DNA from: a virus
Strand: one strand, 5' to 3'
Virus record (IMG/VR): IMGVR_UViG_3300020202_000037
Coordinates: 1 to 43,370 of that record
DNA length: 43,370 nt
A model generated the notes under the pieces. That model saw nothing but the letters and a program-made list of their open reading frames with translations. It searched no databases and was not told where the DNA came from. A program made the position numbers and the translations under genes. Shown here piece by piece: positions 11,990-43,370 of the stretch (positions within the stretch are counted from its first letter, which is position 1; each line of letters starts with the position of its first letter).

Positions 11990-12844
11990 CTACATATCCG
12001 TATAAGGATTTACAAAATCGGATGAATATATTGGTTGGTAATTGGCTGTCGGTACCCCTGCATACCCTTCAGTCTCCAGGTAGAGATAGAGAAGACAATC
12101 AATGACGTCTTCATAGGGGTGATTAGGCTCTTTAATTTTATCGGTTAAGTTACCGTTGGCATCTTTTTTGTAACAGTACCCCCCTTGAAACGCTTTCTTT
12201 AGCGTAGGACAACCCGCATCCCCGTTTGGAGACACATAAATTGAGAAAGCTTCTTGGCCGCCTGGTGTTTCTTGGAGGTCTTTGAGAATCAACTCTCTTC
12301 CACGATGCTTACGCTCACGAACTGGTAAAGACAAAATACGGTCGTACATCGGAAAGATGCCTTCTTCTTGAAGGACTTCTATCTCTGTTCTAGAACCTCG
12401 ATGATCCTCAAATGAGCCAGACGGGTCGCAGATATCGACAAAATGGGCATCGGGAAATAAGGTTGCTGAGTCGCTAAGCGCTACCCTTAATTGCTCGATT
12501 GTGTTACTAGCGTTGTCAAAATCTGTAACAAGGCCTTTTGCACCGAGCACTCGTTCATGCAGGATTCGTTTCCGATGATATGAATCGATTTGAGCGTATA
12601 GCGTCGCATTGGTTCGTCCAAAGTCCCATATTCGATAGATAGGCTTAGAGGGATTATAGGCAAACGAGTTTGTAACATGGCGATGCTCCTTAAACGGATT
12701 AAAGACCTTGCCAGAAACCGACAAAGCGTAATTAATGTCCAACTCCCTTGCAACAGCGTCCTCAGTCCGACGCTTGCACTCGTTCTCATACCACACTTGA
12801 TCCTTCTCTGGATGAAGCGCCCAATGCAATGTATACTTGCGCAT
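11990..12844 (-). CDS. Large terminase, nuclease half (separate cistron)
   Basis: A 284-aa protein corresponding to the C-terminal RNase H-like nuclease of TerL, which cuts concatemeric DNA. Visible acidic metal ligands are D74 (IWDFG), D140 (VDICDPSG) and D246/D249 (HPYEDVIDCLLY). The N-terminus (MRKYTLHWALHPEKDQVWYE) is the linker region that normally follows the ATPase domain within one chain. Its ATG overlaps the stop of the ATPase cistron (TAATG), so the enzyme is made as two translationally coupled polypeptides unless there is a sequencing error. Confidence 0.85.
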   Translation of the reverse strand: MRKYTLHWALHPEKDQVWYENECKRRTEDAVARELDINYALSVSGKVFNPFKEHRHVTNSFAYNPSKPIYRIWDFGRTNATLYAQIDSYHRKRILHERVLGAKGLVTDFDNASNTIEQLRVALSDSATLFPDAHFVDICDPSGSFEDHRGSRTEIEVLQEEGIFPMYDRILSLPVRERKHRGRELILKDLQETPGGQEAFSIYVSPNGDAGCPTLKKAFQGGYCYKKDANGNLTDKIKEPNHPYEDVIDCLLYLYLETEGYAGVPTANYQPIYSSDFVNPYTDM

Positions 12845-13587
12845 TATGCTGCAATTAACCCCTTATCACGTAAACAATCTTCATTGCCGGGATAAATCCG
12901 AACCTCGTTATGTTGACTGTGCATCAACTGGAAAAAATAGTTCCCTTCCCCATAGGGGGTAGAGGTAATAATCCGGCAATTGGTTGTGTCAGCACACCCT
13001 TCGTATGCAGCTTCTGAGTTCTCCCAGAACGCGAATTCGTCAAAAAAGATGGCGCGGTACCGACGGGAGCGTCCAAACGCTGGATTCGCAGATTCGCCAG
13101 TCAGGATGTTGTTATTTTGCATGTTGAGAATGGACAGCTTTTTGTCGTTATACTCAGGACGCATCCAACGCGGCATCTTTTGAAGCGCATATCGAAACTT
13201 CCCAAACAGGGTAGAGTCTGGATCCACAATGGCGTTACAGACCTCTTGTTCCCGCTTGGAACCACAATGGAAGTTCCAACCATCTTTGAACAGCCAACCC
13301 CAGAGGAAGATCATCATGATCATCCAAGTAACGCCCATATCCCTGGATTTCTCAATCCCAAAGTCATGTTGTTCTTCAATGTTTTTAACCCACTCTTGGA
13401 TGCACCACTCTTGGAAGGGGTACAGGTTAAAGGGAAGATCCCTGCCGTTTTTCCGTGGGTTTGTTGTCCAAGCAAAGGCATTCATCCAGTACACAGGATC
13501 TTTAGAACATAGTTCCAAAAGGGCGGCCTGAAGCCCCTTATCCTTCTCTGCTTTTTGCAGGAGGATAACGCGATCAATTAAGTCCAT
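12844..13587 (-). CDS. Large terminase, ATPase half (separate cistron)
   Basis: A 247-aa protein with the TerL packaging ATPase motifs: a Walker A variant KSRDMGVTW at residues 80-88, Walker B AIFFDE at 179-184 (D183, catalytic E184) and the coupling motif TSTP at 208-211. Full-length TerL proteins carry a nuclease domain in the same chain; here the reading frame stops about 18 codons after HNEVR (226-230), ending DKGLIAA. The neighbouring cistron supplies the nuclease. The tail between residue 230 and the stop has no counterpart I recognise in intact terminases. Confidence 0.87.
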   Translation of the reverse strand: MDLIDRVILLQKAEKDKGLQAALLELCSKDPVYWMNAFAWTTNPRKNGRDLPFNLYPFQEWCIQEWVKNIEEQHDFGIEKSRDMGVTWMIMMIFLWGWLFKDGWNFHCGSKREQEVCNAIVDPDSTLFGKFRYALQKMPRWMRPEYNDKKLSILNMQNNNILTGESANPAFGRSRRYRAIFFDEFAFWENSEAAYEGCADTTNCRIITSTPYGEGNYFFQLMHSQHNEVRIYPGNEDCLRDKGLIAA

Positions 13588-25815: not shown

Positions 25816-25931
25816 CCTTCCTCTTAATATTTGAGCGCTGCCCCTTTGTGGTCCACTCCCGGGTAGTATTTCGCAGCGTGTCCTTACCCAAGGGACTATG
25901 TGGGTTGATTATAGGGGCAATCCTTCCCCCA
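25816..25931 (-). promoter_or_regulatory. Structured 5' leader with competing hairpins
   Basis: Transcription from the promoter at 25939-25967 would give a ~115-base leader. It can fold two ways: GGGGG (25930-25926) with GCCCC, or TGCCCCT (25919-25913) with AGGGGCA (25845-25839), a 7-bp helix closing an ~80-base domain just before the start codon. These pairings exclude each other, as in attenuators and riboswitches. No known riboswitch family recognised. Confidence 0.4.
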
Positions 25932-25936
25932 TAATA

Positions 25937-25967
25937 ATACTATACTTTTTATAGTATCGGATGTCAA
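25937..25967 (-). promoter_or_regulatory. Strong sigma70-type promoter with internal operator
   Basis: On the minus strand TTGACA (25967-25962), exactly 17 bases, then TATAGT (25944-25939). The spacer and -10 box are covered by a perfect palindrome, ATACTATA / TATAGTAT with a 5-base centre (25937-25957). This is a textbook repressor-controlled promoter for the zinc-ribbon gene at 25456-25815. Confidence 0.8.
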
Positions 25968-26048
25968 TACTTTTTCTTTAATTTGTCTTTAAATTGTTAC
26001 ATAACTTTACAAGTACTTTGAAAGTCAATAACTTAATCATTCGTAAGG

Positions 26049-26077
26049 TTGACATTCGGGAATTGCTTTATCATACT
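26049..26077 (+). promoter_or_regulatory. Sigma70-type promoter, plus strand
   Basis: TTGACA at 26049-26054, a 17-base spacer and CATACT at 26072-26077, giving a start near 26084. This leaves a short leader containing AGGAGG (26096-26101) before the ATG at 26108. It is divergent from the promoter at 25939-25967 across about 80 bases of AT-rich DNA. Confidence 0.7.
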
Positions 26078-26107
26078 TAGAATAGCAGTATGTCTAGGAG
26101 GAAAGTT

Positions 26108-36183: not shown

Positions 36184-36213
36184 CAATTTTAACCCCTCGA
36201 TTCGTTTTCTAAA

Positions 36214-36242
36214 ATTATATTAACACAAGTGTAATTCCAAAG
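36214..36242 (-). promoter_or_regulatory. Promoter of the early minus-strand operon
   Basis: Read on the minus strand, TTTGGA (36242-36237), a 17-base spacer and the consensus TATAAT (36219-36214). The spacer contains the small inverted repeat ACACTTGTGT. It would start the nuclease-primase-polymerase operon about 25 bases before the ATG at 36183. Confidence 0.6.
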
Positions 36243-36449
36243 TAAATACCTATTCAAAACTTAACCTAATGGTCAATGTTTTGACTTGGATGATTAGGGT
36301 AAAATTGTCAGATCATATTAGTCTTTATTAAGTCTATAAGTTTAGACTTTAGTCTACAAAAAAGAACCTAAGGTAATACTGTTTTAGAATGATCTAAGTA
36401 AGACTTAATTGATCTATAGTCAAAAATGAAAAATTTCAAGTTAAAAGGG

Positions 36450-36479
36450 TTGTATTGCAATTTACATTCGTGTTATTAT
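36450..36479 (+). promoter_or_regulatory. Promoter for the dNMP kinase operon
   Basis: TTGTAT at 36450-36455, an 18-base spacer and TATTAT at 36474-36479, about 32 bases before the ATG at 36512. An alternative -35, TTGCAA at 36455-36460, is also possible. The match is moderate. Confidence 0.5.
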
Positions 36480-36511
36480 TTAAACAGTGATAGGAACTGA
36501 GGACCCTTTAA

Positions 36512-37105
36512 ATGCTAATAGGCATAGGTATTTCAGGCAAACAATTTGCAGGTAAGGACACATTTGCGGACTTGCTTTTAGGGTACTTACCGTGGTACAA
36601 AAAAGTGTCTTTGGCTGGACCTTTGAAAGAGGAATATGCTGCTTCAAAAGGGTACAGCGTAACTGAGTTGGAAGAGTACAAAAGAACAATGCCTGAAGTT
36701 CGCAAGGATTTAATTGATCTTGGCATGAGCCGCCGATCAGAAGACCCTGAGTACTGGGTTAAAAAGGTATTGGCTCACCGTGGGAACATCGTTGTACCAG
36801 ACATTCGGTTCCAAAATGAAGTAGACGCTTTTAACCGAGCGTTTCAGAAGTTCTATCTGATTCGGTTGGAGTCACCGGAAAGCGTTCGCTCTTCCCGGGG
36901 ACGTCTGGCGCATACGGATGATGTGTCAGAGACTGAGTTGGATGACTACGATGGCTTTAGTTTTTATCTGACCAACGATTCCTCCTATGATGAGCTTATG
37001 AGCACGGCAAAGCAAGTGGCCAATATGGTCCTTAGCTTTCAAATCCAAGTGCTGATTAACCAAGTGGTTCAGAATTACAAGGTTTCTTTTTCTGCTGAAT
37101 CCTAG
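36512..37105 (+). CDS. Deoxynucleoside monophosphate kinase-like protein
   Basis: A 197-aa P-loop protein: GISGKQFAGKDTFAD at residues 6-20 is the Walker A loop (G14-K15) of the phage dNMP kinase group (T4 gp1-like). KVSLAGPLKEEYAAS and VVPDIRFQNEVDAF are the strand-helix segments typical of that family. It would phosphorylate dNMPs, including dTMP made by ThyX. Length is close to family members. It is the first gene of the plus-strand operon, with TGAGGA as SD. Confidence 0.82.
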   Translation: MLIGIGISGKQFAGKDTFADLLLGYLPWYKKVSLAGPLKEEYAASKGYSVTELEEYKRTMPEVRKDLIDLGMSRRSEDPEYWVKKVLAHRGNIVVPDIRFQNEVDAFNRAFQKFYLIRLESPESVRSSRGRLAHTDDVSETELDDYDGFSFYLTNDSSYDELMSTAKQVANMVLSFQIQVLINQVVQNYKVSFSAES

Positions 37106-37170
37106 GCCACTTAATGGCCCTGTACATTGACAATTGAATATTCCTTTTAGCACCAATCGAGGGGTTCTGA

Positions 37171-37524
37171 GTGGAAGAGTTAGAACTACATTGGTTGGCT
37201 GGGCTGTTGGAAGGCGAGGGTTATTTTGCAAAGCCCGCTCCTTCTAGACCAAATCAACCAAGGATTATTATCGAAATGGTGGATGAAGACGTTATTGCTA
37301 AGGTTTCTTCGCTGCTTGAAAGGAAGTACTGGTCTCGATCAGGACGAAGCGGAAATCAAGCAACGTACCTTACGCAAATCTCAGGACGTCCAGCGGTCCG
37401 ATTGATGACAGAGCTGTTCCCGCTAATGGGCCAGCGAAGACAGAAACGGATTGCAGAGATCATTGAGCTTCATCAGGCTAAAAACGTTATTCCCATCCAG
37501 CGTAAAAGGCATAAAACAGCATAG
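37171..37524 (+). CDS. LAGLIDADG-type homing endonuclease-like protein
   Basis: A 117-aa protein beginning with the single LAGLIDADG motif LHWLAGLLEGEGYF (residues 6-19), with the catalytic acid at E16. One motif per chain implies a homodimer. The rest is short and basic (QRRQKRIAEIIELHQ, QRKRHKTA), fitting a free-standing endonuclease of small size, though it may be too short to be active. It starts at GTG with CGAGGGG upstream. It sits between the kinase and a structured leader in front of thyX, a likely insertion site. Confidence 0.75.
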   Translation: MEELELHWLAGLLEGEGYFAKPAPSRPNQPRIIIEMVDEDVIAKVSSLLERKYWSRSGRSGNQATYLTQISGRPAVRLMTELFPLMGQRRQKRIAEIIELHQAKNVIPIQRKRHKTA

Positions 37525-37546
37525 TGACATGTGCGTTTTATCCTGT

Positions 37547-37574
37547 CCCGGAATGTTAGGTTCCGGGTTTTCTT
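37547..37574 (+). terminator. Rho-independent terminator before thyX
   Basis: CCCGGAA (37547-37553) pairs exactly with TTCCGGG (37561-37567) around a 7-base loop, followed by TTTTCTT. It ends the kinase/endonuclease transcript or attenuates transcription into thyX, whose start is 158 bases further on. Confidence 0.82.
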
Positions 37575-37731
37575 GGCGGTGCGAGTCTATGATGGTGCAA
37601 CTCCATCAACCGCCATTTCAGTTATTTTGCTTATTCTCACACAACCCATACGAATCACCGGTGGCCACGTTACAGCGCCTTGTGGCGTGGCTGCCATTCT
37701 TTTTTGCAGCTTACAGACTAAGGAGGTCTCT
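37575..37731 (+). promoter_or_regulatory. Structured leader of thyX
   Basis: Two further foldable elements lie between the terminator and the gene. TGGCGGT/ACCGCCA (about 37574-37615) encloses GATGG-TGCAACT-CCATC, a 5-bp stem with a 7-base loop similar to a tRNA T-arm on an acceptor-like stem. GCCACG (37664-37669) pairs with CGTGGC (37686-37691) around an inner CGCC/GGCG hairpin, followed by ATTCTTTTTT, again terminator-like. The SD AGGAGG lies in a small AGAC/GTCT loop. No known riboswitch recognised; an attenuator is plausible. Confidence 0.45.
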
Positions 37732-38469
37732 ATGAAAGTCGAGTTGATAGATCATATGGGCTCAGACCTTACGGTTGTTAATGCTGCAAGGGTGAGCTTT
37801 GATAAACAAAGTTGGTGGCTTCCTATTGAGGAGGGTTATGAGGCTTGTAGCGGTGGGGAAATAGCAAAAGTTGTTGGTGTAAAATTGCGAGCCTGCGATG
37901 CAAAACTGATCAATTATCTTGCAAAGCACAAGCACTGGACTCCATTTGGTCATTGTACCGCTCAATTCCGCGTTACAGCCCCCATTTTCGTAGCCAGACA
38001 ATTGGCAAAGCACCAGGTTGGTTTGGTCTGGAACGAGGTCAGTCGTCGTTACGTTGATAGTGAACCTGAGTTCTTTGTTCCAGAGGCTTGGCGTCTGAAA
38101 GCAGAGGATAAGAAGCAGGGGAGTAGTGAAGAAGTTTTGGGCGCCATTCCTGGAATTTTGTATGAGCATTCCGGGTTTGAGTTGTTACCCATTGATTATG
38201 ATGTCTTAATGGACGTTTGTAGAACGTTTTATAACCGGCTTTTAGAAGATAATGTCTGTCCAGAGCAAGCCCGCATGGTCTTGCCTCAAGCGATGTACAC
38301 GCAATGGTACTGGACTGGATCCCTGATGGCCTTTGCAAGGGTCTGCAAGCTAAGGCTTGATCCTCATGCCCAAAAGGAAACGCAGGTTATTGCAAAAGGC
38401 ATTGCTGGGCATATGGAGAAGCTTTTTCCCGTTAGTTGGCAAGCTTTGATGGATAAGGAGGTTGTTTAA
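37732..38469 (+). CDS. thyX: Flavin-dependent thymidylate synthase (ThyX)
   Basis: A 245-aa ThyX making dTMP from dUMP with FAD and methylene-tetrahydrofolate. Family features: VNAARVSF near the start, HWTPFGH..AQFRVTAPIFVARQ, and NEVSRRYVD with S104. The hallmark RHRx7S is not present as such: residues at the three positions are H94-Q95-V96 (KHQVGLVWNEVS), a variant I associate with phage ThyX proteins. The ATG at 37732 has an ideal AGGAGG; the frame is open upstream but that part looks noncoding. It works with the kinase and dCTP/dUTP enzyme. Confidence 0.92.
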   Translation: MKVELIDHMGSDLTVVNAARVSFDKQSWWLPIEEGYEACSGGEIAKVVGVKLRACDAKLINYLAKHKHWTPFGHCTAQFRVTAPIFVARQLAKHQVGLVWNEVSRRYVDSEPEFFVPEAWRLKAEDKKQGSSEEVLGAIPGILYEHSGFELLPIDYDVLMDVCRTFYNRLLEDNVCPEQARMVLPQAMYTQWYWTGSLMAFARVCKLRLDPHAQKETQVIAKGIAGHMEKLFPVSWQALMDKEVV

Positions 38470-38612
38470 TGGTTTTTATGGTTCCTAGGGCTGTTAAAGA
38501 TAAACCGAGTTACAGACTATCTCTTTTTATCATTGTTTTTGGTGGTTGTCTGTTCGTTGCGACCAGCTCTTTTGCTCTAGGGTTTTGCCTTGTTTGGATT
38601 TTACTACATTGA
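38469..38612 (+). CDS. Small membrane protein, 47 aa
   Basis: Begins MVFMVPRAVKDKPSYRL, then about 27 uninterrupted hydrophobic residues (LFIIVFGGCLFVATSSFALG onward), ending WILLH. Probably one long or two short membrane passes. Its ATG overlaps the thyX stop (TAATG), the usual coupling in this genome, and it fills the gap to the next gene. Not recognised; function unknown. Confidence 0.6.
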   Translation: MVFMVPRAVKDKPSYRLSLFIIVFGGCLFVATSSFALGFCLVWILLH

Positions 38613-38624
38613 AAGGCGGTCGTG

Positions 38625-38945
38625 ATGAGTAACCACCAACCCATAACCCCCGAAGAGCGCCAGCGGTGGCGGGATTTGCTTAGAGAGTATCCCAATGCCG
38701 GGGCTGAGCGTCATAATTTTATTATGGAGACTTTAGGAGCCCTTCCCCGGCTGATGGAGGAGAATCGGCGGCTGGCTGAAAGCCATAGACGATTAGTAGA
38801 GCTTAAGTTTGCCGCCATTCATCTAGGAGATGTTTATCACCATTCCTGGTGGTCTCTAATTCGGGAAGCCACCGAGGACTTGGAATGCCCTTGTGACTTA
38901 AACACAATGGGGTCTTGTAAACGCAAAGCCTTGGGGGTGGATTAA
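38625..38945 (+). CDS. Hypothetical protein, 106 aa
   Basis: Not recognised. Mostly helical with many Arg/Glu (EERQRWRDLLREYP; LMEENRRLAESHRRLVELKFAA, a likely coiled coil) and a C-terminal Cys-containing segment (LECPCDLNTMGSCK) that could bind a metal. ATG 38625 is chosen, with AAAGGCGG upstream, over GTG 38622. It belongs to a run of small early genes after thyX. Confidence 0.7.
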   Translation: MSNHQPITPEERQRWRDLLREYPNAGAERHNFIMETLGALPRLMEENRRLAESHRRLVELKFAAIHLGDVYHHSWWSLIREATEDLECPCDLNTMGSCKRKALGVD

Positions 38946-39020
38946 ACATGATAATTAATGCGCAAAAGTATCACATTTGGTGGCTTGTATCACATTTAGA
39001 ACACAAAAAAGGAGGACAAA

Positions 39021-39302
39021 GTGACTGATTGGCAGGATATTAGCACGGCACCAAGGGATGGCAGAGAGGTTAAGATAAAGGCCACCTCTTTTACTGGCCA
39101 TACTGTAGAGTATGACCGTTGTGTGTGGGTGCCGTCGAAAGACGTGGAAATGCTTTGCTGTGAGGAATGCGGGGAGACATATACTTATTCCCAAATAGAA
39201 GGCTGGTTTTCAAATGGAGTGCGGCTTCCGCCGTGGTCAATTTGTACCCACTGGCACCCCCTCCCAGAACCACCGCAGGAAGGAGACCGGGATGATGGCT
39301 GA
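39021..39302 (+). CDS. DUF551-like small phage protein, 93 aa
   Basis: The N-terminus DWQDISTAPRDG and the C-terminal THWHPLPEPP are the two marks of DUF551-type proteins, common in phages and of unknown function. Between them lies CCEECGETY, a possible metal-binding Cys cluster. The start is GTG 39021 with GGAGGA nine bases upstream. An 11-base direct repeat, GTATCACATTT, lies just before it at 38968 and 38987. Confidence 0.82.
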   Translation: MTDWQDISTAPRDGREVKIKATSFTGHTVEYDRCVWVPSKDVEMLCCEECGETYTYSQIEGWFSNGVRLPPWSICTHWHPLPEPPQEGDRDDG

Positions 39303-39435
39303 TTCTTACATAGCTGGGATTACGACAGGGCTTTTTGCAGCACTTTTAGTGAGATGGTTGACTGACGGTTATGCATCATTTCCATGGGTTGCTCTTATAG
39401 CGGTTTTACTTACACATCTAGCAGGATGGCTTTAA
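39292..39435 (+). CDS. Small two-pass membrane protein, 47 aa
   Basis: MMADSYIAGITTGLFAALLV is followed by a short WLTDGYASF loop and a second hydrophobic segment (WVALIAVLLTHLAGWL). AAGGAG six to seven bases upstream marks ATG 39292 as the start, inside the end of the preceding gene. Function unknown; the size and topology fit a pinholin-like or small host-membrane effector, but nothing else supports that. Confidence 0.62.
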   Translation: MMADSYIAGITTGLFAALLVRWLTDGYASFPWVALIAVLLTHLAGWL

Positions 39436-39452
39436 GGAAGGAGACCGGGCGA

Positions 39453-40091
39453 GTGAGTGATAGGCGCTTAAGCATAGAAGAGGCGGCACAAGAAATATAC
39501 GACAGGCATAAAAACCCAAGCTCACTGGAGTATTTAACCTGGAGAGATGCTTGTGAGATTGTTAGGACTGCGGTCGATACCGCTGTTGCCGCAAAAACCG
39601 CCGAGTGTGAGCAGTTGCAGGCAGAAGCGGCGGCGATGCGCCTAGGATTACAACATCTTTTGCTAGAAATAAAAGATGCGGGCTGTACTGTTGACTATTT
39701 CGTTTATATTATCGAAAGTGCTCTATCGATTGGTGGCTCCGCAGGCCAAGCCCTGTTGGAGCGGTTGCGGCTGGCGGAAGCGGTGTGTGAAAAAATACCG
39801 ATTTGCGCCGATATTCTCCCAAAGCCTATACTTGGTCCGGTTTATCAAGCCTGGCAGCAGGCCCGATCGAACTCTCCGGAAAAACCAGATAGTTCAATGG
39901 CTGATTCAAATAATTTGGAACTAATTCACGCTATAGAAGAGGAGGAAAAGGCTTACGAAAACGCTTGGAATAGGGTGGTGGAGGCGGCTATTGCTTTGGT
40001 AGCAACAGATATACACGATGGGGATAAACAATGGGCTTTGATTAAGGCTGTGGAAGCGTTGCAAGTGTTGGAGGGTAATGGTGATGAGTGA
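39453..40091 (+). CDS. Helical hypothetical protein, 212 aa
   Basis: Not recognised. Predominantly helical with a coiled-coil-like Ala/Glu-rich section (AAKTAECEQLQAEAAAMRLGL), a central Cys/Ile-rich part and a C-terminal helix pair. The AAGGAG SD nine bases upstream favours GTG 39453; an ATG at 39426 is in frame. The block GAAGGAGACCGGG before it repeats the one before 39292, a small duplication of a translation signal. It overlaps the next gene slightly. Confidence 0.68.
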   Translation: MSDRRLSIEEAAQEIYDRHKNPSSLEYLTWRDACEIVRTAVDTAVAAKTAECEQLQAEAAAMRLGLQHLLLEIKDAGCTVDYFVYIIESALSIGGSAGQALLERLRLAEAVCEKIPICADILPKPILGPVYQAWQQARSNSPEKPDSSMADSNNLELIHAIEEEEKAYENAWNRVVEAAIALVATDIHDGDKQWALIKAVEALQVLEGNGDE

Positions 40092-40302
40092 TGAGCTGAG
40101 AAAAATGGCCTATGAATGCTGGAGTGCGTGCCGGTCATGGGATTGGCGGCCTGGAGATGAAGTCGCTCTGGAATACCTCCTGGCTGCGTTTGAACTCGGG
40201 GTTCAGAAGCGAAACGAGGAAATAGAACGTCGGATAAAACACTCCTCTGCGTTTAAAGAGGGTTGGGATGCTCCTGGGATGGAGGCTTATGATGGTGAGT
40301 GA
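40084..40302 (+). CDS. Hypothetical protein, 72 aa
   Basis: Not recognised. A helical protein with MSDELRKMAYECWSACRSWD at the start and a long charged helix (FELGVQKRNEEIERRIKHS). GGAGG lies nine bases before ATG 40084; ATG 40078 is also in frame. It overlaps the ends of both neighbours. The opening MSDEL and the next gene's MVSDER share a similar start-region sequence, perhaps another small duplication. Confidence 0.65.
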   Translation: MSDELRKMAYECWSACRSWDWRPGDEVALEYLLAAFELGVQKRNEEIERRIKHSSAFKEGWDAPGMEAYDGE

Positions 40303-40507
40303 TGAGCGGTGTGAGAATTGCCGGTTTTGGATAGCAAACAAGTATATTTGTGAACAGCTTGGTGATTGCAAACGCTATCCGCCACTTAAAGGCTCTATGG
40401 GAGGAAACGATACTGCTTATTATGGCGCCGTACTTCTTACTCGAAGTTATGATTGGTGTGGGGAGTGGCAAGTAAATAGCCCTCCATCTACAACAAGTGA
40501 AGAGTAG
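40292..40507 (+). CDS. Zinc-binding small phage protein, 71 aa
   Basis: The pattern CENCRFW (C7, C10), C20 in YICEQLGDCKRYPP and WCGEW near the end matches a small Cys-rich protein family frequent in phages (C.NCR.W ... CR..PP ... WCGE), probably holding one zinc ion. GGAGG six bases upstream fixes the start at ATG 40292. Function unknown. It ends the first block of tiny genes; a 94-base spacer with the palindrome TGCCCGGGCA follows. Confidence 0.78.
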   Translation: MVSDERCENCRFWIANKYICEQLGDCKRYPPLKGSMGGNDTAYYGAVLLTRSYDWCGEWQVNSPPSTTSEE

Positions 40508-40601
40508 ACAGCTGGGCTAAATCTTCTATGCTAGTAGTGGTGTCAAGCCCTTGGTTGGATGCCCGGGCAGCGTTGAAGGTTTTGGAGGGTCAGAAATAAC
40601 C

Positions 40602-40850
40602 ATGGGTCTATATGATAACGTTCTATTCGAGATGGACTGTCCTAAATGTCAGTCCAAAATCTCTGGATTCCAAAGCAAGAATGGGCCTTGTTGGCTCCAT
40701 GATATTGACTTTAGGAGCGTAGATACCTTCTATAGTTGTTGTAATAAATGTCGTCTATGGATTGAGTACCGATATAAAGTTAAACCGGCCTTAGAACGTA
40801 CTATAGACGATTATGAATTAGTAATGGAGGACCTACCAAACGACAAGTGA
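40602..40850 (+). CDS. Zinc-ribbon small phage protein, 82 aa
   Basis: MGLYDNVLFEMDCPKCQSKI followed by GFQSKNGPC and CCNKCRLWIEY is the pattern of a common phage zinc-ribbon protein (CPxC ... FQSKDGPC ... FY..C..C). Two CxxC pairs (C13/C16 and about C48/C51) bind zinc. The ATG at 40602 is preferred over an ATG at 40551 because the conserved family start is MGLYD. Function unknown; nucleic-acid or protein binding likely. Confidence 0.8.
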   Translation: MGLYDNVLFEMDCPKCQSKISGFQSKNGPCWLHDIDFRSVDTFYSCCNKCRLWIEYRYKVKPALERTIDDYELVMEDLPNDK

Positions 40851-41216
40851 TTAAAAGATTGGTGCCCTGCGGCGTGGACAGTGACACGCACACGAGAATC
40901 GTTCGTACTAGGTGAAAGAATCTAGCGTGTAATACGGGAACGACGGAAGCCGGTGACGTAAGGGACAAAGGGGCTCATGCTCTTGTGGTTATTCAGTTAA
41001 CCCTACCTCAACAATTCCGGCCAGGGCACCTACTTATAAAAAGTTATAGTAAGTTCTAACCAGTTATAGCGTGTTTAGGTTAGTTTATGGCGAGCTTTGT
41101 AAACTAAGGAAAGCCAAAGAAAATGATCCCGATCGGGACAATTTAGACCAATTTGGGATCAAAACAGGTCAAATAATCCCGTACGGTAAATTTAGAAGAG
41201 AAGAGACGAATTGAGC
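40851..41216. other. 366-bp gene-free region
   Basis: No coding frame of note. It contains the candidate structured RNA at 40861-41030, then AT-rich DNA with the direct repeat AGTTATAG (about 41043 and 41063), the perfect 12-bp palindrome TCCCGATCGGGA (41127-41138) and the nested inverted pair GATCCC (41125) and GGGATC (41155). The second half may hold a promoter/operator for the genes from 41217. Confidence 0.7.
40861..41030 (+). ncRNA. Candidate structured noncoding RNA, about 170 nt
   Basis: GGTGCCCTG (40861-40869) pairs perfectly with CAGGGCACC (41022-41030), extended by CGG/CCG after a 2-base bulge, closing the domain. Inside are GCGTG/CACGC (40872-40889), ACGA/TCGT (40892-40902), CTAG/CTAG (40908-40925), TACG..CGG-AAG-CCG..CGTA (40933-40960) and AGGG/CCCT with inner ACAA/TTGT (40961-41004). 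No protein-coding frame explains it. It resembles no tRNA, tmRNA, RNase P or riboswitch I know. Strand is inferred from the neighbouring genes; the reverse strand folds equally. Confidence 0.55.
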
Positions 41217-41375
41217 ATGAACAACATGACTGATCCAATTCTGTACCGCCTAAACGCTCTTGAACGTGTTGTTGAAGAGTTGATTAAGGACGTTGAGACT
41301 ATAAGGCGTAGGCCCAGCATAACAGTGTGTCTAAAAGAGGTTCTTACAGATGTATTACGGAGGGCCAGAGTTTAA
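41217..41375 (+). CDS. Small coiled-coil protein, 52 aa
   Basis: Starts MNNMTDPILYRLNALERVVE and continues as one charged helix, then RRRPSITVCLKEVLTDVLRRA, likely a helical dimer. Its TAA is immediately followed by the ATG of the next gene, so the two are probably one operon. The SD is weak and the length short, so this is a moderate call. Not recognised. Confidence 0.55.
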   Translation: MNNMTDPILYRLNALERVVEELIKDVETIRRRPSITVCLKEVLTDVLRRARV

Positions 41376-41570
41376 ATGTACGTTAAAGAACTTATTGATC
41401 GCTTACAGAACTTCGCACCCAATGCTAACGTGTACGTTGCTATCCAGTTTCGAGACACGATCTTCTATGACCTCGTGCTTGATACTAGGAGCGACAATGA
41501 CGGCGATGTAGTCCTTGAACCAGTGCCTTATGACCTGGGAAAACTATCACACCCTAAAGAAGACAAGTAA
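41376..41570 (+). CDS. Small phage protein, 64 aa
   Basis: MYVKELIDRLQNFAPNANVY is the opening shared by many short phage proteins of the pattern M.V.ELIE.LQ..PPDA.V, followed by strands (YVAIQFRDTIFYDLVLD; DVVLEPV). Function unknown. GGAGG lies about 13 bases upstream. It abuts the 52-aa gene and is followed after one base by the next start. Confidence 0.75.
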   Translation: MYVKELIDRLQNFAPNANVYVAIQFRDTIFYDLVLDTRSDNDGDVVLEPVPYDLGKLSHPKEDK

Positions 41571-41571
41571 C

Positions 41572-41814
41572 ATGGCCCTATACGTCGTTCATTTTTGCCG
41601 CAACCGTTCATGCAACGTTGGTTGGATAGACGAAGATCTGACCAATGCAACGAGTCCGCCTAAGTGGAAGTACTGCCCTGAATGCGTTCAACAAGGTTTT
41701 GTCAATCCCGATCGTCCTCCTAAATCAGAGGCAGCTATCAGGAAAGCTATGCTCATGAATCAACGTCTAAAAGAACGACGGATCAACGTACATAATGCCC
41801 AGGAAGGGGCTTGA
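41572..41814 (+). CDS. Zinc-ribbon hypothetical protein, 80 aa
   Basis: CRNRSC near the start and CPEC in the middle (about residues 9-14 and 34-37) form a likely zinc ribbon; the C-terminus is a basic helix (AIRKAMLMNQRLKERRINV). ATG 41572 is chosen because the ribbon starts soon after; a TTG further upstream overlaps the previous gene. Not recognised otherwise. Last gene of the rightward block. Confidence 0.68.
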   Translation: MALYVVHFCRNRSCNVGWIDEDLTNATSPPKWKYCPECVQQGFVNPDRPPKSEAAIRKAMLMNQRLKERRINVHNAQEGA

Positions 41815-41977
41815 AATTTGTTTTAGGTGTTTTGGTACCTCCGAAAGAAACGGACCAGGTAGTGGCTCTGACCACTAATCGCAGTTCCTACCAGTCCTTA
41901 CATGCACTCCCGCCCGGGTCATATCCGGGGGTCTGCCGAATAACCAATAAGGCAGTTGTAAGGGCTGGTTTTTCTTT
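41815..41977. other. Gene-free stretch between rightward genes and integrase
   Basis: 163 bases holding CCCGG-GTCATAT-CCGGG (about 41913-41929), CTGCC/GGCAG (41934-41955) followed after ten bases by TTTTTCTTTTT (weak plus-strand terminator), and the perfect 10-bp inverted pair AGTTGTAAGG (41954-41963) and CCTTACAACT (41996-42005), the latter inside the integrase 3' end. It could hold a terminator for both directions or part of the attachment site. Confidence 0.45.
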
Positions 41978-43054
41978 TTACCAATTCTGCATTGACCTTA
42001 CAACTTGTCGCTCGCTGGTCATGTTGTACAACTCTGTTGTTGTCAGGTGCTTATGGCCAGCAGCCTTGCTTACTTCAGAAAGAGGTCTCCCCTTCTTCAA
42101 GCTGATGGTAACAAACGAACGCCTTAACCCGTGAGGGGTAATGTCTAAGCCAAGGTGCTTGCCAACCCGTTTAACCTTTTGTTGAATCTTAGCTCTGGTG
42201 AACCCTTTTCGATTCTGTCCTACAAAGAAATGCGGGTCCTCTGTCGTTGGGCGTATCTTTAGGTACTCCTTAAGGAAAGGTACTAGGCTTGATGGAATAC
42301 CTAGGGTTTGTCGCTCTCCGCCTTTCCGGACAAACGTCATGGTTTTCTCTGGGCTATCTAAGTCCACGTCTTCCAACAGCAGGCCGCATAGCTCCGAGTT
42401 TCGAAGCCCAGCAAAGTACATCGTTGCAACAATTGCGCGGTTTAAGATGCTTCGTTCCTGTCCGTACTCCCTGTTGTTTTGTAGGAAATCAAATATTTTC
42501 TGCGCTTCGTCCTCCTCTAAGACAGTCCGTTTAACATCCCGCTTCCTTTCTGGTTTGAACTGCTTCAACTCATCAAGTAGGATAGGACCTTCTATCTTTT
42601 TCATAACAAGAAAACGAGCATAGCAAAGAATGGCAAAGTACAGCATATAGCGGCGGCTCTTTGTAAGCGTTTGCCAAGCTTTTAATAGGGTGTCTGTTGA
42701 GATGCCTTTATATAGCTTAAAGAAGAGGGTAAGCGCCCCTGCATAATCGTTAATCGTTTCATTGGAAAAGCGTCGACCACCAGCCGATAAAAGAAACCCC
42801 TCCTCCATCCATGTTCGCCACTCTGTAAAGTAAATATCATGTGGTCTCACCCATACGACATTGGCCGTCTTGTCTCGTTTAGTACCTTTTCCCATTACCT
42901 CTTCTAAGCCGTCCAGCCACTCAACAAGCTGTTGGAACCTCCCTTCGTAAGTATCCCATACAGCGTTTAGAGTACCCGCTTTGATAAGACGGCGTACGTG
43001 TTGGGGCGTGTATCCCAGCTTATCTGCTACAACTTTTGTAGGATAAAATGCCAT
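41978..43054 (-). CDS. int: Tyrosine integrase with N-terminal excisionase-like HTH
   Basis: A 358-aa recombinase. Residues 1-50 are a MerR/excisionase-like helix-turn-helix (YPTKVVADKLGYTPQHVRRL) in place of a usual arm-binding domain. Residues about 65-165 are the core-binding domain. Catalytic residues: R218 (GLRNSELCGL), K244 (VRKGGER), H308 and R311 (TPHGLRRS), H334 (AAGHKH) and nucleophile Y343 (TTTELYNM). It integrates the phage at an attachment site. GGAGGA seven bases upstream fixes ATG 43054 over a start at 43099. Confidence 0.93.
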   Translation of the reverse strand: MAFYPTKVVADKLGYTPQHVRRLIKAGTLNAVWDTYEGRFQQLVEWLDGLEEVMGKGTKRDKTANVVWVRPHDIYFTEWRTWMEEGFLLSAGGRRFSNETINDYAGALTLFFKLYKGISTDTLLKAWQTLTKSRRYMLYFAILCYARFLVMKKIEGPILLDELKQFKPERKRDVKRTVLEEDEAQKIFDFLQNNREYGQERSILNRAIVATMYFAGLRNSELCGLLLEDVDLDSPEKTMTFVRKGGERQTLGIPSSLVPFLKEYLKIRPTTEDPHFFVGQNRKGFTRAKIQQKVKRVGKHLGLDITPHGLRRSFVTISLKKGRPLSEVSKAAGHKHLTTTELYNMTSERQVVRSMQNW

Positions 43055-43243
43055 TGGTGTTCTCCTCCATATGCAGTACCGGTTAAGGCCTGCGAACATG
43101 ACTGTAACTTAAGAATAGACGGAGGATTAGACCAATTTCATCCTTTATTTTGCGTGTTCCTGAACATGTTTTTCCATTCTTTAAAAATTGAAGAATTGTG
43201 TCTAGGAGCGGATTAAAGTGGGGTAACATTAACTCTCAATTCC
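43055..43243. other. Integrase upstream region, possible attachment/arm sites
   Basis: 189 bases before the terminal repeat. It carries GAACAT elements at 43093-43098 and 43163, the palindromes TGTTCCTGAACA (43155-43166) and AACATGTT (43163-43170), and GGAGCGGA (43206-43213) paired with TCCGCTCC (43241-43248), which reaches into the terminal repeat. Together with CGAACATTTATGTTCG at 66-81, these could be integrase or excisionase binding sites. No tRNA-like segment was seen, so the attachment core is not located. Confidence 0.45.
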
Positions 43244-43370
43244 GCTCCCTCATCCGTCTAGAGTAGTTGTACCGCATAGCTTTGGGCTGTGCAAGTTACA
43301 AAATGTTGCGAACATTTATGTTCGTCATTGACAACTATGCAGGATTGTGGTGGGGGAGTTTCTTTGCGGA
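43244..43370. repeat. Terminal direct repeat, right copy
   Basis: Identical to bases 1-127. It closes the contig into a circle of 43,243 bp and joins the integrase upstream region to the end of the late operon. Best read as an assembly overlap. Confidence 0.95.

Follow-up and report, generated by a model that had tools for sequence, protein, structure and literature searches.

The DNA analysed here (the window) is the whole of IMG/VR virus record IMGVR_UViG_3300020202_000037, 43,370 bases long. Its first 127 bases recur at its end (1-127 are identical to 43244-43370), meaning that the record is terminally redundant or a closed assembly. It encodes a portal of the head-tail-adaptor family, a terminase, a family-A DNA polymerase, an exonuclease and RuvC, together with a dCTP deaminase, ThyX, a Dam-type methylase, a resolvase and a tyrosine integrase; as part of our best, still tentative, explanation of the locus, we take the virus to be a temperate, podovirus-like phage. 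The gene list used has only plus-strand genes between 36512 and 41814, and two of them are separated by a 366-bp gap (40851-41216) that holds the 170-nt segment of interest, 40861-41030. The features of this region and its surroundings are as follows.

40602-40850, plus strand: upstream gene, 82 aa, Cys-rich; no family above cut-off.
40861-40869, plus strand: 5' arm of helix P1, GGTGCCCTG; from the MFE fold and pair probabilities.
40872-40889, plus strand: P2 hairpin, 5 bp, predicted from the MFE fold.
40899-40943, plus strand: P3 stem (40899-40904/40938-40943), closing a junction, predicted from the MFE fold.
40908-40925, plus strand: P3a hairpin within P3, predicted from the MFE fold.
40926-40936, plus strand: P3b hairpin within P3, predicted from the MFE fold.
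40949-41021, plus strand: P4 stem, GCCGG/CCGGC (40949-40953/41017-41021), predicted from the MFE fold.
40969-40984, plus strand: P4a hairpin within P4, predicted from the MFE fold.
40987-41002, plus strand: P4b hairpin within P4, predicted from the MFE fold.
41022-41030, plus strand: 3' arm of helix P1, CAGGGCACC; from the MFE fold and pair probabilities.
41031-41216, no strand: AT-rich rest of the gap, candidate promoter, operator or origin DNA; from GC content and a motif scan.
41071-41214, plus strand: possible gene, 47 aa, GTG start; codon score slightly positive, no convincing family.
41217-41375, plus strand: downstream small gene, the first in a cluster reaching 41814; from the gene list.
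41890-41979, plus strand: strong extended terminator-like structure after the downstream cluster (z -2.66).
41978-43099, minus strand: tyrosine integrase, with relatives common among Vampirovibrio-class genomes.

The terminator-like structure, between the early cluster and the integrase, consists of a 13-bp outer stem and an inner GC-rich hairpin, followed by a T-rich tract.

On our hand-made gene list, which gives a coding density of 94%, the 366-bp gap is the largest single gap in the genome. A preliminary description of this DNA had held that genes elsewhere overlap or abut, which is overstated. Divergent genes are separated by 274 bp (25816-26089) and 325 bp (36187-36511) and convergent genes by 163 bp (41815-41977), and placing the start of ThyX at its own ATG at 37732 rather than at 37531, from its N-terminus as read by eye, leaves a co-directional gap of ~207 bp (37525-37731). 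This last gap, ahead of the probable ThyX start, carries strong terminator-like hairpins and comes directly after a LAGLIDADG/HNH-type endonuclease ORF (37171-37524). The further statement that the 366 bp are free of genes holds on the hand-made list but ignores the 47-aa GTG ORF, whose stop lies 2 bp ahead of the ATG of the next gene; if this ORF is a gene, as it may be, the gap shrinks from 366 to 220 bp.

The segment itself has stops in all six frames and no usable reading frame, as had been described from the letters. We rejected a gene remnant, the stop-to-stop pieces having no PHROGs family match; the codon-usage score cannot discriminate here, with neighbouring small genes also scoring near zero. 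The predicted fold of the 170 nt is branched, with an MFE of -59.5 kcal/mol and 51 pairs. It confirmed the long-range helix proposed earlier, P1, in which the two 9-nt arms pair perfectly and close the segment, and contained several local hairpins, likewise in line with the earlier proposal; in this fold the 3' strand of P4 abuts P1 without a break. The closing helix is robust in silico: its outer eight pairs had pairing probabilities of 0.98-1.0, and the ninth 0.84, with plus-strand flanks of up to 774 nt, and the outer eight kept this range in all plus-strand contexts tried, including the segment alone. A third exact copy of the P1 9-mer is absent from the genome. The segment is also an island in composition, with 54.7% GC against 34.7% in the rest of the gap, a value reached by just 2.3% of genome windows.

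The fold exceeds chance only weakly. Since the segment was picked for its fold features, all p-values are after the fact and the statistics are to be read as moderate evidence only; within that reading, the closing helix, the GC contrast and the self-containment have modest statistical support. P1 is the only perfect 9-bp helix in the genome that spans 120-180 nt and has seven or more GC pairs (0.4 expected), and in shuffles of the 366-bp gap such a GC-rich 9-bp helix arose in 0.35%, against 14% for any 9-bp helix. Self-containment of the segment was 0.71, compared with 0.43 +/- 0.15 in shuffles, 5 of 70 of which were as high. The overall fold energy, however, is ordinary for this genome: z ranged from -1.9, a value that 10 of 200 shuffles matched or bettered, to -2.3 in a tiled genome scan, where 56 of 508 tiled 170-nt windows (11%) had z <= -1.9 and several reached -4 to -6. 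On both strands the scan gave its strongest structure at 91-260 (z ~ -5.8), a stretch that spans the end of the terminal repeat.

It is quite possible that the segment is part of a passive spacer, or of DNA inserted recently, and that its fold is due to chance: sequence rich in GC folds, and a single 9-bp helix would have arisen without selection. The window scan agrees with such an origin, as do the 12 perfect 9-bp helices of P1's span (120-180 nt) observed genome-wide against 8.3 expected and the lack of a homologue in any search; the rarity of the GC-rich helix among gap shuffles argues the other way, as does the rank of the gap as the genome's largest on the gene list used.

The AT-rich remainder (41031-41216) has a different character. 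GATC occurs at 41125, 41131 and 41157, within the genome's only cluster of at least three GATC in 50 bp (41125-41160), and two of the three genomic ATCCCGWWCG sites (41126, 41176 and 41705) fall in this part of the gap. The GATC cluster and the ATCCCGWWCG repeats suggest that the remainder is DNA control sequence; 41125-41185 together with 41705 might form a methylation-sensitive operator or origin. Because about half of the gap thus has the features expected of DNA control, the earlier argument that 366 bp kept free of genes implies function is weakened. Carried further, a promoter, operator or replication origin in 41031-41216 could by itself keep the gap, the adjoining fold being incidental. 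The motif clusters, the Dam-type methylase of the phage and the low GC (0.35) of this stretch are consistent with that account, which we nevertheless regard as rather unlikely: it explains the AT-rich half but leaves the GC-rich closed fold unaccounted for, the scan gave no sigma-70-like promoter in 41031-41216, and we know of no repressor binding site for this stretch.

Searches for homologues of the segment returned nothing beyond the virus itself. Rfam at gathering thresholds gave no match in 40861-41030, and at E <= 5 a single chance match to snoR9, outside the segment, that scored 17.3 bits where the gathering score is 90; ARAGORN called no tRNA or tmRNA. By blastn there was no related sequence among phages and plasmids, a run at E <= 10 adding two short chance matches. 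A DNA search of 382 class-level genomes found nothing, and a covariance model, built from one sequence and of low power, recovered only the segment itself in these genomes and the distant viral relatives; nhmmer at full sensitivity over the collected loci did not find the segment either. In IMG/VR, a 14-mer seed, GGTGCCCTGCGGCG, gave no nhmmer extension among the matches listed, and none of the 12 stretches found with a 16-mer seed matched the covariance model. Attachment-site or host-derived copies of the segment were sought with the same outcome, chance-level short matches only. Two IMG/VR fragments represent the same virus at 100% identity, neither of them extending to 40861-41030; a query with the DNA polymerase returned the same virus only, and queries with the integrase and small genes returned no relatives. 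No convincing relative of a neighbouring early gene was found. By sequence comparison, then, the segment is an orphan, without evidence of conservation in phages, plasmids, the 382 class-level genomes or distant relatives. Those distant relatives have mainly structural genes in common with the phage (~20-57% identity) and do not share its early region, so the missing homologues say little about function.

Several known RNAs invite comparison. HEARO/OMEGA RNA (RF02033) is of similar size, branched and closed by a terminal helix, as is the predicted fold of 40861-41030. The preliminary description had raised a remnant of such a mobile RNA. A branched RNA inside a terminal inverted helix is similar in outline to HEARO/OMEGA, intron or retron-like RNAs, and the phage has a LAGLIDADG/HNH-type endonuclease ORF. 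We consider such a remnant highly improbable: Rfam, HEARO and intron families included, gave no match, the endonuclease ORF is 3.3 kb distant, a Pfam and PHROGs scan found no IscB or TnpB among the neighbouring proteins, and reverse transcriptase was likewise absent from the scanned proteins. The pRNA of phi29-type phages is about 170 nt long with paired 5' and 3' ends; it was rejected here, as Rfam gave no match and the genome is not of phi29 type, having instead a family-A DNA polymerase, a head-tail-adaptor-type portal and a 127-bp terminal repeat. GOLLD and ROOL are structured noncoding RNAs, some of them phage-borne, and both are far larger than the 170-nt segment. These two (see PMC12286853), along with group I and II introns, tmRNA and tRNA, were dismissed for want of any match to Rfam models or in ARAGORN. 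Whereas established RNA families have many homologues and covariation, 40861-41030 is a single sequence; it does resemble the orphan intergenic structured RNA candidates recognized by GC contrast and folding, which likewise combine a GC-rich, self-contained fold with AT-rich surroundings and no reading frame.

Which strand would carry an RNA is addressed by the transcription signals. No sigma-70-like promoter was found at either edge of the segment, the consensus used being one that may not fit this host, and the scan gave no plus-strand terminator at its end; a free-standing plus-strand small RNA with its own promoter and intrinsic terminator was set aside, with the same proviso about the sigma-70 consensus. 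The minus strand folds almost as well (-54.3, z -2.0), the plus strand being slightly better, and a scanner called 40880-40863 on the minus strand as a weak terminator-like site, with the tail CCAATCTTTT. A minus-strand small RNA, starting in the AT-rich region, where TATAA-like words lie just upstream on that strand, and ending past P1 at AATCTTTT, would use these features; given the lack of a minus-strand promoter call there and the better plus-strand fold, we think it improbable.

The lack of an edge promoter or plus-strand terminator favours co-transcription over a free-standing RNA, and the common plus orientation of the genes at 36512-41814 favours a co-transcribed cis element. Our best explanation, held tentatively, is that 40861-41030 is a lineage-specific, structured intercistronic RNA element between two co-directional early genes. 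We infer that it would be transcribed on the plus strand within the early mRNA and fold as a closed domain, in which P1 encloses P2, a branched P3 and a branched P4 adjoining P1; it would then act in cis, at the 3' end of the upstream messages or as a spacer, governing how stable those messages are or how the genes that follow are expressed. The rare helix, the GC-rich island, the self-contained fold and a z of about -2 make the structured RNA of the preliminary description defensible as a candidate with a putative function. Against this RNA element count the ordinary fold energy, the lack of a homologue or Rfam family, the nearly equal folding of the minus strand and the post-hoc p-values, and we place it at about even odds with chance.

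The segment is a real sequence feature, unproven as an RNA; as a singleton candidate, it is indistinguishable from a lucky fold. Should it be genuine, it would add an RNA element of no known family to the phages of Vampirovibrionia, about which little is known. The bolder proposal of a new class of ~170-nt phage regulatory RNA, branched and closed by a terminal helix, controlling early or integration genes and so far represented in one temperate podovirus of Vampirovibrio-type hosts, we regard as doubtful.

The host assignment rests on the portal and the integrase. A degenerate portal motif search matched five genome contigs, four of them titled Vampirovibrio, and the phage portal is 53% identical to a portal in genome G063 and 36% identical to one in G003, both of which belong to the class searched around Vampirovibrio genome G002. 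Integrases of the phage's type are frequent in the Vampirovibrio class, at 27-37% identity. With relatives of both proteins in this class, we infer that the host is likely a member of Vampirovibrionia (Vampirovibrio-type bacteria), and the practical value of the analysis includes this probable assignment. The large terminase (11990-13587) is divided between two ORFs with an overlap at TAATG. The prophage of G003 likewise has it split, but in loci L186, L187 and L188 it is a single ORF.

One further observation concerns a database entry. MW495066.1 (loci L123, L220 and L221) is named Microcystis phage MaAM05 / PhiMa05, and PMC13157829 presents it as a jumbo cyanophage that has ribosomal proteins. 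The two stretches of it that we viewed, ~99 of 274 kb, read like a bacterial chromosome, with ispG, trpS, metG, proS, aspS, ftsH, lepA, purB, secE-nusG-rplK-rplA and tRNAs. Judged from these ~99 of 274 kb, MW495066.1 may not be a phage genome but a contig of a Vampirovibrio chromosome that carries the remnant of a prophage, although PMC13157829 argues otherwise; its portal lies within a run of hypothetical genes flanked by such chromosomal genes.
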